In this document: positions 31,690 to 37,866 of the stretch, piece after piece
Layout of the letters: every line of letters begins with the position of its first letter
How positions within the stretch are numbered: the stretch's first letter is position 1
From: a virus
IMG/VR virus record: IMGVR_UViG_3300032316_000299
Span: 1-41,389 of that record
Length of the DNA stretch: 41,389 nucleotides
Strand: one strand, 5' to 3'
Program-made: the position numbers and the translations under genes
Notes under the pieces: model-generated
What the model was told of the DNA's origin: nothing
The model's input: only the letters and a program-made list of their open reading frames with translations
The model's database searches: none

Positions 31690-31890
31690 ATGTCTAAGGG
31701 TTCAGCACCAAGACCCTTTGAGGTCAACCACCAAACATTTGCCAACAACTTTGATGCCATCTTTCGCAAGAAGTTTAGATGCCCTGTCTGTGGTTCTGAC
31801 AGTGGCCGTGAGAGGCAATTCAATGACTACGATAAAGTAGAGTCTTACAAGAAATGTGATTCTTGCAACTTTATATGGGACAGAACATGA
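31690..31890 (+). CDS. Small zinc-ribbon protein
   Basis: 66 residues with CPVC at about 31-34 and CDSC at about 56-59, a classic four-cysteine zinc ribbon. Residues 1-28 form a basic, helical N-terminus (SKGSAPRPFEVNHQTFANNF). Such proteins may bind DNA, RNA or RNA polymerase. It is coupled by ATGA to the next gene. Confidence 0.75.
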   Translation: MSKGSAPRPFEVNHQTFANNFDAIFRKKFRCPVCGSDSGRERQFNDYDKVESYKKCDSCNFIWDRT

Positions 31891-32039
31891 AACAAGGTCT
31901 ATATGCCAACATTCACGCCAAGCGTGAGCGTATTGAAGCTGGGTCTAAAGAGAAGATGCGTAAGCCTGGAAGCAAGGGCGCACCATCTGCTGCTGACTTT
32001 AAGAAGTCTGAGAAGACTGCCAAGAAGTTTAAAAAGTAG
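31887..32039 (+). CDS. Small Lys-rich conserved phage protein
   Basis: 50 residues: MKQGLYANIHAKRERIEAGS followed by KEKMRKPGSKGAPSAADFKK. This 'GLYANIHAKRxRIxxGSxEKMRKPGxKGAP' pattern is frequent in phages from many environments, with unknown function. It overlaps the zinc-ribbon stop (ATGA) and ends just before the promoter-like box at 32042. Confidence 0.75.
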   Translation: MKQGLYANIHAKRERIEAGSKEKMRKPGSKGAPSAADFKKSEKTAKKFKK

Positions 32040-32041
32040 GT

Positions 32042-32047
32042 TATAGT
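32042..32047 (+). promoter_or_regulatory. -10 promoter box candidate (TATAGT)
   Basis: TATAGT differs from the sigma-70 -10 consensus at one base and would start transcription near 32053-32054, right at the 5' end of the folded leader. No good -35 is present at 17 bases; CTGCCA at 19 bases is the nearest. An activator, or the alpha-CTD-like protein made downstream, might compensate, but this is speculation. Confidence 0.45.
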
Positions 32048-32051
32048 GTTT

Positions 32052-32128
32052 GAAACCCGGCTAGGCAGAGAGTAGCTACTCTGTCGAAAAGTGAACCTCC
32101 CACCTGCCGCAGTTTCTTTTGGAGGGTT
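32052..32128 (+). ncRNA. Pseudoknotted leader RNA candidate upstream of the initiator gene
   Basis: P1: GAAAC (32052-56) with GTTTC (32112-116), and CGGC (32058-61) with GCCG (32106-109). Inside it P2: GGCAGAG (32064-70) with CTCTGTC (32079-85), loop of eight. The single-stranded AACCTCC (32094-100) within P1 can pair with GGAGGGTT (32121-128) downstream, forming a pseudoknot (one bulged G). The ribosome site GAGGAT follows at 32131. The layout resembles a riboswitch or autoregulatory leader; the ligand or protein is unknown. Confidence 0.6.
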
Positions 32129-32142
32129 GCGAGGATGCTTCA

Positions 32143-32811
32143 ATGCACTACTACCAGCACCATATTGGCGATTTCATTCGTGACACCTCCCGTTTGACCG
32201 ACACCCAATGTATGGCGTATTTGCGCCTTATCTGGATGTACTATCAAACTCAAACCCCACTGTTAAACGACCCTGAAGGTTTGGCTTTTCAAGTGGGGGC
32301 AAATGATCAAGATGTACGTCTGATCCTCAAGCATTACTTTGAAGTTGACGGTGATTTGTACCGTCATAAGCGTTGCGACAAAGAGATTGCTCTGTTTAAA
32401 GAGAAGTCAGAAAAAGCAGCAAAGAGTGCGAACGCACGTTGGAGTAATGCAAGCGCTATGCGAACGCATACCGAACGCATTGCGAACGAACGTGTTTTGG
32501 ATGCTAACCAAGAACCAATAACCAAGAACCAAATAAAGAAAGCAACTACCGTTGCTGCGCCTGAAGGCGTGTCTCCAGAAATCTGGGATTCTTTTGTTCA
32601 GCATAGGAAGTCCAAGAAGGCTCCAATTACGCCGTTGGTTATGGGCTTTCTTGAAGAACAGGCAAAGCTTGCTGGATGGACTTTGGAAAACGCATTGAAA
32701 GAAACTTGTGTCCGTGGATGGCAGTCTTTCAAAGCTGAGTGGGTTGCCAAGAAGCATGAACCACAAAACCAGTTGACAGCAGCAGAGCGGCTGAAGAGGA
32801 TGGCAGGATGA
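32143..32811 (+). CDS. DUF1376 replication-initiator-like protein
   Basis: 222 residues; ATG 32143 is preceded by GAGGAT. Residues 1-85 (HYYQHHIGDFIRDTSRLTDT, then AYLRLIWMYYQT) match DUF1376/YdaU, a winged-helix-type domain seen in phage replication proteins. A linker from about residue 95 to 135 is encoded by the iterons at 32427-32490 and the A-rich repeats. The C-terminal part (GFLEEQAKLAGWTLENALKE, GWQSFKAEW) is the usual helical domain of lambda-O-like or DnaT-like proteins. It probably melts the origin and loads the helicase encoded just downstream. The stop overlaps the next start (ATGA). Confidence 0.85.
   Translation: MHYYQHHIGDFIRDTSRLTDTQCMAYLRLIWMYYQTQTPLLNDPEGLAFQVGANDQDVRLILKHYFEVDGDLYRHKRCDKEIALFKEKSEKAAKSANARWSNASAMRTHTERIANERVLDANQEPITKNQIKKATTVAAPEGVSPEIWDSFVQHRKSKKAPITPLVMGFLEEQAKLAGWTLENALKETCVRGWQSFKAEWVAKKHEPQNQLTAAERLKRMAG
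32427..32490. repeat. Four iterons (TGCGAACGCA) inside the initiator gene
   Basis: TGCGAACGCA at 32427 and 32459 is exact; CCGAACGCAT at 32471 and TGCGAACGAA at 32481 are variants. TGCG and CGCA arms make each site nearly palindromic. In lambda, four iterons lie inside gene O, which encodes the protein that binds them. Placement in the linker-coding part of the DUF1376 gene matches that design. Confidence 0.65.
32506..32534. repeat. A-rich tandem repeat beside the iterons (possible DNA-unwinding element)
   Basis: AACCAAGAACCAAT (32506-32519) is followed immediately by AACCAAGAACCAAAT (32520-32534). The A-rich, strand-biased tract lies 16 bases after the last iteron, as the unwinding element does in lambda ori. 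It also encodes a Lys/Gln/Asn linker, so a purely coding reason is possible. Confidence 0.55.
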
Positions 32812-37013: not shown

Positions 37014-37399
37014 TGAATAAAACAGAAATGCTAGACCACTTTGCCTTGTACGCAATGCAAGCACAAGTTGAAAAAATGGGCGTCACAAACCCTTTTGCTG
37101 TTGCTCAAAGTTCGTATCGAATGGCCGCAGAAATGTTAGAGCATCGTGACCGTATTTTGCAAGAATGGCAAAAAGAACAAGAGACTCAACATCGACATAA
37201 GGCATCTGATTTACATGAATTAGAACTGCCAGTCAGGTATCACAGATGTTTAATATCAGAAGATATTTTGATGAAGCGTGATTTATCCAATTGGACTGAA
37301 CATCAAATAAGAAAAATACCAAACTTAGGTGTCAAGGGATTGCAATTTCTTAAATATGCAATGGCTGTACATGAATTGAAATTTAAAGGACAAGAATGA
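37013..37399 (+). CDS. RNA polymerase alpha-CTD-like protein
   Basis: 128 residues. Residues 67-122 align without gaps to the C-terminal domain of bacterial RNA polymerase alpha: LPVRYHRCL (Arg75 at the place of E. coli Arg265), then DL, TE, K, and IPNLGVKGL (Asn104, Gly106, Lys108 at Asn294, Gly296, Lys298). The spacing Arg75 to Gly106 is 31, as in alpha. Alpha-CTD binds UP elements and activators. Residues 1-60 are a separate helical segment. It could titrate activators or tether polymerase to phage promoters; alternatively it is simply a helix-hairpin-helix DNA-binding protein. Confidence 0.7.
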   Translation: MNKTEMLDHFALYAMQAQVEKMGVTNPFAVAQSSYRMAAEMLEHRDRILQEWQKEQETQHRHKASDLHELELPVRYHRCLISEDILMKRDLSNWTEHQIRKIPNLGVKGLQFLKYAMAVHELKFKGQE

Positions 37400-37866
37400 A
37401 TGTTTTGCCTTTAACTCTTGCAGACGCAAATGCTTTTGTTACTTTGCATCATAGGCACAATAAAAAAGTGCAGGGTCATAAATTTAGTATCGGTGCAGTT
37501 GAAGAAGACAATCTTGTTGGTGTAGCAATAGTTGGTAGACCTGTATCAAGATATTTGGATGATGGTTTAACAATGGAAATTACAAGATTAACTGTGCTTG
37601 ACGATTCCCCTAAAAATACTTGTTCATTTCTTTATAGATGTGCTTGGCGTATATGGTCTGCAATGGGTGGGCAAAGAATAATTACATATACAACAGAGTC
37701 GGAAACAGGATCATCACTCAAAGGTGCAGGTTTTAAAGTTGTTGCTAAGTCGCCTTCTTGGAAAGAAGGCACTGGATGGACAACTAGAAGCAATCGAGTC
37801 TGGCAACCTGTGCATTCAGAAGGAAAAGTTCGTTGGCAAATTGATAAAGGACAAAGCAATGCTTGA
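37396..37866 (+). CDS. XF1762-family GNAT-like protein
   Basis: 156 residues: PLTLADANAFVTLHHRHNKK, GHKFSIGAVEEDNLVGVAIV, then EITRLTVLDDSPKNTCSFLY and RIITYTTESETGSSLKGAGF. This matches XF1762-like phage proteins, a GNAT-fold group; the TRL strand and the NTCSFLYR loop occupy the acetyl-CoA site. The substrate is unknown. It is the second GNAT-type protein in the genome (the other is at 557). It overlaps neighbours by four and eight bases. Confidence 0.85.
   Translation: MNVLPLTLADANAFVTLHHRHNKKVQGHKFSIGAVEEDNLVGVAIVGRPVSRYLDDGLTMEITRLTVLDDSPKNTCSFLYRCAWRIWSAMGGQRIITYTTESETGSSLKGAGFKVVAKSPSWKEGTGWTTRSNRVWQPVHSEGKVRWQIDKGQSNA

Follow-up and report, generated by a model that had tools for sequence, protein, structure and literature searches.

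The leader of the DUF1376 gene in the viral DNA analysed here contains a genuine pseudoknot, as judged by comparison with related RNAs: a three-way junction carries a hairpin loop, L3, that pairs with a first downstream target, T1. Both this structure and its pairing with T1 are almost certainly correct. A second target, T2, coincides with the Shine-Dalgarno sequence, and translational control by the leader is likely. We consider that the leader is probably a translational switch between T1 and T2, perhaps with an additional action in trans.

The window, by which we mean the whole stretch of DNA analysed, comprises positions 1 to 41,389 (one strand) of the IMG/VR virus record IMGVR_UViG_3300032316_000299. 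A PHROGs search with 20 of its 53 ORFs identified terminase, portal, major head, tail spike, Erf-like annealing and primosomal proteins, and Pfam identified DUF1376, DnaB/AAA helicase and RusA. A Mom-like DNA modification protein is encoded at 37396-37866 (phrog_1384, E 1.3e-35). As no tyrosine integrase (PF00589) was found in the record, which may be a fragment, we find no support for lysogenic immunity in this phage; control of replication by dose would be compatible with either lifestyle.

Fold of the leader RNA

The leader fills a gap of 103 bases (32040-32142): a small ORF stops at 32039, and DUF1376 begins at 32143. Over some 135 bases, the DNA of this ORF (31890-32026) shares 73-77% identity with hypothetical genes from Synechococcus and Prochlorococcus phages. 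All sequence segments named in the first-pass annotation are present at their places, and the gap has the length given there; TATAGT, described as ending seven bases before the first stem, is in fact four bases from GAAAC. The features of the leader are as follows.

32042..32047, + strand: -10 box TATAGT (sequence; family-wide TANNNT position test)
32051..32116, + strand: structured RNA, three-way junction P1/P2/P3 (covariance model R1, 73.3 bits, E 1e-16; int-alpA match; covariation)
32052..32061, + strand: P1 5' strand, GAAAC 32052-32056, then CGGC 32058-32061 (sequence; covariation helices 1 and 2)
32064..32085, + strand: P2 hairpin, GGCAGAG 32064-32070 and CTCTGTC 32079-32085 (sequence; covariation helix 3)
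32086..32090, + strand: conserved junction strand GAAAA (base conservation in alignment A1)
32091..32103, + strand: P3 hairpin GTG-AACCTCC-CAC, GTG 32091-32093 and CAC 32101-32103 (L3/T1 permutation tests; covariation helix 4)
32094..32100, + strand: L3, the P3 loop AACCTCC, specificity loop (L3/T1 permutation tests)
32106..32116, + strand: P1 3' strand, GCCG 32106-32109, then GTTTC 32112-32116 (sequence; covariation)
32121..32128, + strand: T1, first L3 target and pseudoknot partner, GGAGGGTT (duplex energy; permutation tests)
32131..32134, + strand: T2, weaker second L3 target, the Shine-Dalgarno GAGG (duplex energy; family-wide enrichment)
32143..32811, + strand: DUF1376 gene, replication initiation/primosomal protein (PF07120, 69.5 bits; PHROGs primosomal protein and replication initiation O-like)

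In the window leader the three stems are connected by UA, GAAAA and CU. T1 is located 20 bases downstream of L3, just 3' of the closing stem, and the Shine-Dalgarno sequence 8 bases 5' of the ATG. The pseudoknot between AACCTCC and GGAGGGTT had been recognized from the window alone; its pairing and fold are backed by comparison, but the duplex is not one continuous helix, consisting of 5 pairs, a bulged G and 2 further pairs. Likewise, P1, P2 and the L3-T1 contact were drawn correctly, whereas P3, T2 at the Shine-Dalgarno sequence and the kinship with int-alpA RNA were overlooked. The predicted duplex energies are -9.4 kcal/mol for L3/T1 and -5.9 kcal/mol for L3/T2, the latter with just 4 pairs, and T2 is not clearly enclosed by a hairpin in the window. 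Folding energy was dropped as evidence for the fold, since the value for the window leader is not significant (MFE -36.4 vs -33.6 +/- 3.7 in shuffles, z -0.77; 43 of 200 shuffles were as good).

R1 was built from the window and 33 leaders of DUF1376 relatives (34 sequences), and the window's own score of 73.3 bits is therefore not independent of the model. In alignment A1 the junction bases G36, A37 and A38 are invariant and A39 and A40 are conserved at 90% or above. Across 96 aligned R1 matches from 95 sources, covariation in P1-P3 was 0.438, compared with 0.112 +/- 0.008 in shuffled alignments and at most 0.080 with the partners slid, the latter control offsetting part of the bias towards these stems that comes from fitting the alignment to R1. 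In the same 96 sequences, 88.6% of the P1-P3 cells were paired (63.3% shuffled), with 376 both-sided changes (112.8 shuffled), and pairing reached 94.9% in helix 3 (P2) and 99.0% in helix 4 (P3). Compensatory changes in homologous leaders, the absence of which the first-pass annotation had named as refuting its proposal, are found in P1-P3, and also in L3-T1 as described below. Two loci, L056 and L059, have identical loops and targets and wholly unlike P2 hairpins, as if P2 had been swapped as a block.

BLAST with the window leader returned no match in the phage collection, and Rfam at its curated threshold gave none in the whole window. Records of cultured phages, among them Shewanella phage X14 and Vibrio phages, match related leaders. 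The Rfam comparison that had been suggested nevertheless proved informative in E-value mode: within 31950-32250, int-alpA RNA (RF02996) matched 32054-32126 with 26.1 bits (E 0.0016). Because this score is under the curated cut-off of 35.8, we regard the window RNA as a diverged relative of int-alpA and not as a filed member. Among 20 sampled relatives compared with Rfam, 7 pass the int-alpA cut-off and 3 (L012, L020, L031) have a different leader.

Pairing of L3 with T1 and T2

T1 is absent from R1, and the test of L3/T1 pairing is therefore independent of the model. As a measure of specificity we used ungapped Watson-Crick runs of the apical loop, comparing each loop on its own target with permuted targets. 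These runs replaced whole-loop duplex energies, which the conserved P3 stem and large internal loops confounded; the distributions for own and foreign pairs were not separate, and many own pairs had poor ranks. The mean L3/T1 run was 5.67 vs 3.56 permuted in the DUF1376 leaders (12 loop types, 0/20000 permutations), 5.9 vs 3.7 after viral and genome matches had been added (31 loop types, 0/20000), and 5.45 vs 3.51 with int-alpA genome loci included (38 loop types drawn from 205 parsed leaders of 209; 0/10000). Runs of at least 5 pairs were present in 29 of the 31 loop types, compared with 13.4% of mismatched combinations, and in 33 of the 38, compared with 10.2%. Over the 38 loop types T1 starts 15-27 bases past P3, with a standard deviation of 2.6 nt vs 6.2 for mismatched matches. 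Between the window and L003, the protein of which is 78% identical, CCTCC/GGAGG is replaced by CTCCC/GGGAG, that is, by two double changes. Related RNAs keep the match of L3 and T1 despite changes of their letters.

For T2, the mean run was 4.83 vs 3.91 permuted in the DUF1376 leaders (12 loop types, 18/20000), a set that includes short leaders in which the stretch taken for T2 ran into T1; it was 4.29 vs 3.04 for 31 loop types (0/20000) and 4.37 vs 3.21 for 38 (0/10000). At least 5 pairs were formed in 16 of the 38 loop types, compared with 8.4% of mismatched combinations, and the T1 duplex outdoes the T2 duplex in 27 of 34. Across the family the second target is thus clear, but it is not strong in every member and is weak in the window. 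That T2 is the Shine-Dalgarno sequence itself agrees with the earlier proposal of a ribosome site placed to be masked or exposed by the fold. In 50 of 72 non-redundant leaders the Shine-Dalgarno sequence lies inside a hairpin of at least 5 pairs, compared with 23.4 expected from mononucleotide shuffles; by group, this holds for 8/12 DUF1376, 20/30 viral and 13/15 genome leaders, and for 9/15 of the founder int-alpA group, hardly above the 6.6 expected there. At L323, L341, L345 and other chromosomal int-alpA loci, it is found in the loop of a GC-rich hairpin, for example GCACT-TGAAGG-GGTGC.

The suggestion that the transcript begins just downstream of the -10 box is borne out by a TANNNT motif at a fixed spot upstream of the RNA across the family. 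Of 117 non-redundant leaders, 29 have the motif ending 4 nt upstream (mean per position 3.64), and 70 have it ending 1-9 nt upstream, compared with 26.3 in shuffled upstream regions. This position-specific test was used in place of a count of the TATAAT consensus, which gave only 28/75 vs 16.7 expected. A simple sigma-70 scan of the + strand found no full promoter at the leader. At the other end, the bases after P1 are T-rich family-wide (0.44-0.51 at the first five positions), although not in every member. A terminator scan of the window found none, and a short trans-acting form is therefore not evident there.

Distribution and downstream genes

DUF1376 relatives were represented by the best 80 of 437 IMG/VR stretches encoding them. 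R1 at E<=0.1 matched 62 of these best 80 loci as well as the window, many by construction because their leaders built the model; the conservation in related phages on which the first-pass annotation had staked its proposal is thereby observed. The RNA is directly upstream of the gene in 61 of the 62 loci and 266 bases away in L004. Among the 18 of the 80 loci without a match at this threshold, five have another structured leader and L021 has just 27 bases upstream. The other leader (L012, L020, L026, L031 and L058), within the 115 bases before the DUF1376 start, contains CTTGGCGG..., AAGCCCTAGAC..., ...CCGCCAA... and ...CTAGGGCTTTTTTT in the order a-b-a'-b' of a pseudoknot, with a terminator-like end and with paired changes in L031 and L058; an Rfam scan of the L020 copy gave no credible match.

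Loose pattern scans of IMG/VR and of a genome collection each yielded at least 80 loci. At E<=0.1, R1 matched 78 of the 80 viral loci listed (81 matches) and 37 of the 80 genome loci listed (38 matches); at E<=1 the latter gave 47 matches, likely including chance ones. From 128 R1 matches among the listed loci we kept the 106 with at least 25 bits. Within this set, 24 precede a protein called DUF1376-like by sequence motif and 4 have no called ORF. Pfam was applied to 75 of the 78 remaining downstream proteins, the start codons of which were assigned by a simple rule, not correctly in every case. Among the matches listed, it identified HNH_3 (8), DUF1376 (5), Phage_integrase (4), AP2 (4), DUF559 (3), YhcG_C, DUF927, NUMOD4, NUMOD3 and HNH (2 each), and Phage_pRha and Dam (1 each), with 32 families in total and many proteins without any. 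By this comparison, DUF1376 replication genes are one setting of the module; in others it stands before genes for HNH/homing nucleases, integrases or DUF927 proteins. The earlier suggestion of autoregulation by the product of the DUF1376 gene is rejected as a general account, because these unrelated genes carry the same leader.

At the genome level, int-alpA RNA scores above its cut-off in 6/6 genomes behind the chosen loci and in 0/14 control genomes, as well as in 37/200 genomes of one family and 14/149 of another. The Brocadiia genome of L276 (G005) has eight int-alpA matches, 7 of them above the cut-off and three on one contig. Where a record carries two RNAs, their loops differ in 3/4 cases (L141, L143, L150); they are identical in L276, where one of the two RNAs precedes a YhcG-type nuclease gene.

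Proposed switch and relation to known RNAs

On this model, the 5' end of the DUF1376 transcript would fold at once into the three-way junction and present a P3 loop complementary to two successive downstream targets. Pairing of L3 with T1 would close the pseudoknot, whereas pairing with T2 would cover the Shine-Dalgarno sequence; as the two are mutually exclusive, we propose that the leader is a translational switch. We infer that the gene would be on while L3 is held by T1, leaving the start site free, and off once L3 moves to T2 and blocks translation. Short RNA copies lacking T1, produced by early termination or processing, could in addition bind T2 of other transcripts and repress them in trans, so that the replication gene may come under copy-number or immunity control of the kind exerted by P1 C4 and P4 CI RNA.

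An unlikely but serious alternative is that the RNA acts mainly in trans, as a C4- or P4 CI-style antisense immunity RNA that is released as a small RNA and pairs with T1/T2 of incoming or extra copies. Rfam types int-alpA as an sRNA, the loop sequences vary widely around an invariant core, the order of RNA and target is that of P1 C4, and two RNAs of one record mostly carry differing loops. However, T1 is held at a nearly fixed distance in cis, which would be needless for a trans target and suits a cis fold; the window lacks a detectable terminator, and one L141 loop fits the other RNA's target as well as its own. Very unlikely is a leader that works as a riboswitch or by binding a protein, with a small molecule or host protein at the invariant junction shifting L3 between T1 and T2. 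Invariant junction bases and two exclusive pairings, one of them at the Shine-Dalgarno sequence, would suit such a device, but the genes that follow are those of mobile elements and replication rather than of metabolism, and no Rfam riboswitch family matched the window at the curated threshold or 31950-32250 in E-value mode.

Replication of IncI-alpha plasmids is controlled at repZ by an antisense RNA from the opposite strand together with a coupled leader peptide. Judging by their titles, two papers by Asano and Mizobuchi describe a pseudoknot switch for repZ. A leader of this type, in which the pseudoknot activates translation and an opposite-strand antisense RNA competes for the loop, would explain a pseudoknot just upstream of a replication initiator start; it is highly improbable here, as it leaves the T2 copies unexplained, the RNA precedes many non-replication genes, and no Rfam repZ family matches 31950-32250 at E<=10. 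Chance complementarity in an ordinary 5' UTR, with which the unremarkable folding energy would agree, is negligible in view of the conservation and compensatory changes that already refute it.

Beyond the translational switch itself, we advance only tentatively, and with the balance somewhat against it, a portable module of about 110-130 bases (promoter, junction RNA, T1 and T2/Shine-Dalgarno) in phages and mobile elements of many bacterial phyla, the re-programmable loop-target code of which would give each element self-recognition control over dangerous genes. If so, it could serve copy-number or superinfection control of replication initiators, homing nucleases and integrases. In any case, the repeated, covarying targets offer a compact loop-target code through which RNA-based immunity or copy control of phages can be studied.

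In a review, the T4 gene 32 pseudoknot is described as possibly the sole viral example used in translational autoregulation (PMC3014915). Like it, the window leader has a 5' pseudoknot that may govern translation of a phage replication gene; in the part of the review concerned, the T4 pseudoknot is bound by the gene's own protein and no T1/T2 repeat is described (PMC3014915). The phage homing endonuclease genes mobE and I-TevI are covered there as having a hairpin over the ribosome site, a simple structure that differs from the window leader in having no junction RNA (PMC3014915). IsrK RNA of Gifsy-1 (RF01394), also a phage leader RNA, exists in two lengths, and its short form pairs with the long transcript, according to the section concerned of PMC4825925; unlike the switch proposed here, it activates in trans, and it has no Rfam match in the window.

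The P4 replication genes are kept off by P4 CI RNA, which acts through termination at a pair of complementary sites (in the relevant section of PMC4825925). By acting at the ribosome site, c4 RNA prevents translation of ant, and it is the basis of P1/P7 heteroimmunity (in the relevant section of a review, PMC12197685). As in P1 C4 (RF01695), the RNA lies in the leader of its target mRNA, with one target just past the RNA and a second near the ribosome site; in the P1 record annotation, C4 RNA is followed 3 bases later by target a2, and target b2 lies 10 bases ahead of the icd start codon. The window loop likewise matches targets lying around the ribosome site of the gene that follows, with just 4 pairs at T2, and CCTGCC at the 3' end of P1 C4 counts as a further likeness. 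Membership of C4 is nevertheless rejected: the C4 model has different stems (one long outer stem, two inner hairpins and an unpaired strand after the second) and no match in 31950-32250 at E<=10, and R1 has none in P1, P4 or N15 at E<=10, where the C4 model scores 68.8-78.8; the leader RNA is therefore not a C4 member.

Int-alpA RNA is closer. Its alignment with the window is full-length (1-71), with CUAG, GAAAAG, ACCU and CCUG and with equal length and 3' tail, and the single model R1 finds RNAs of both types. In contrast to the window leader, the Rfam int-alpA model shows no pairing for the T1 part of the tail and stops short of T2, and the RNA is named for a place beside integrase and alpA, whereas the window RNA is upstream of DUF1376 in a record without PF00589. 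The E. coli copy, which shows this name-giving setting, has an integrase on one side and a hypothetical gene on the other, beyond which lie HTH, AntA/AntB, Icd-like and DUF927 genes. Our literature search found a presence table only and no functional description of int-alpA RNA. Many of its chromosomal members show the T1/T2 plan, and RNAs of this type precede replication initiators, nucleases and integrases beyond the int/alpA context; the repeated, covarying targets thus give int-alpA RNA a testable mechanism.
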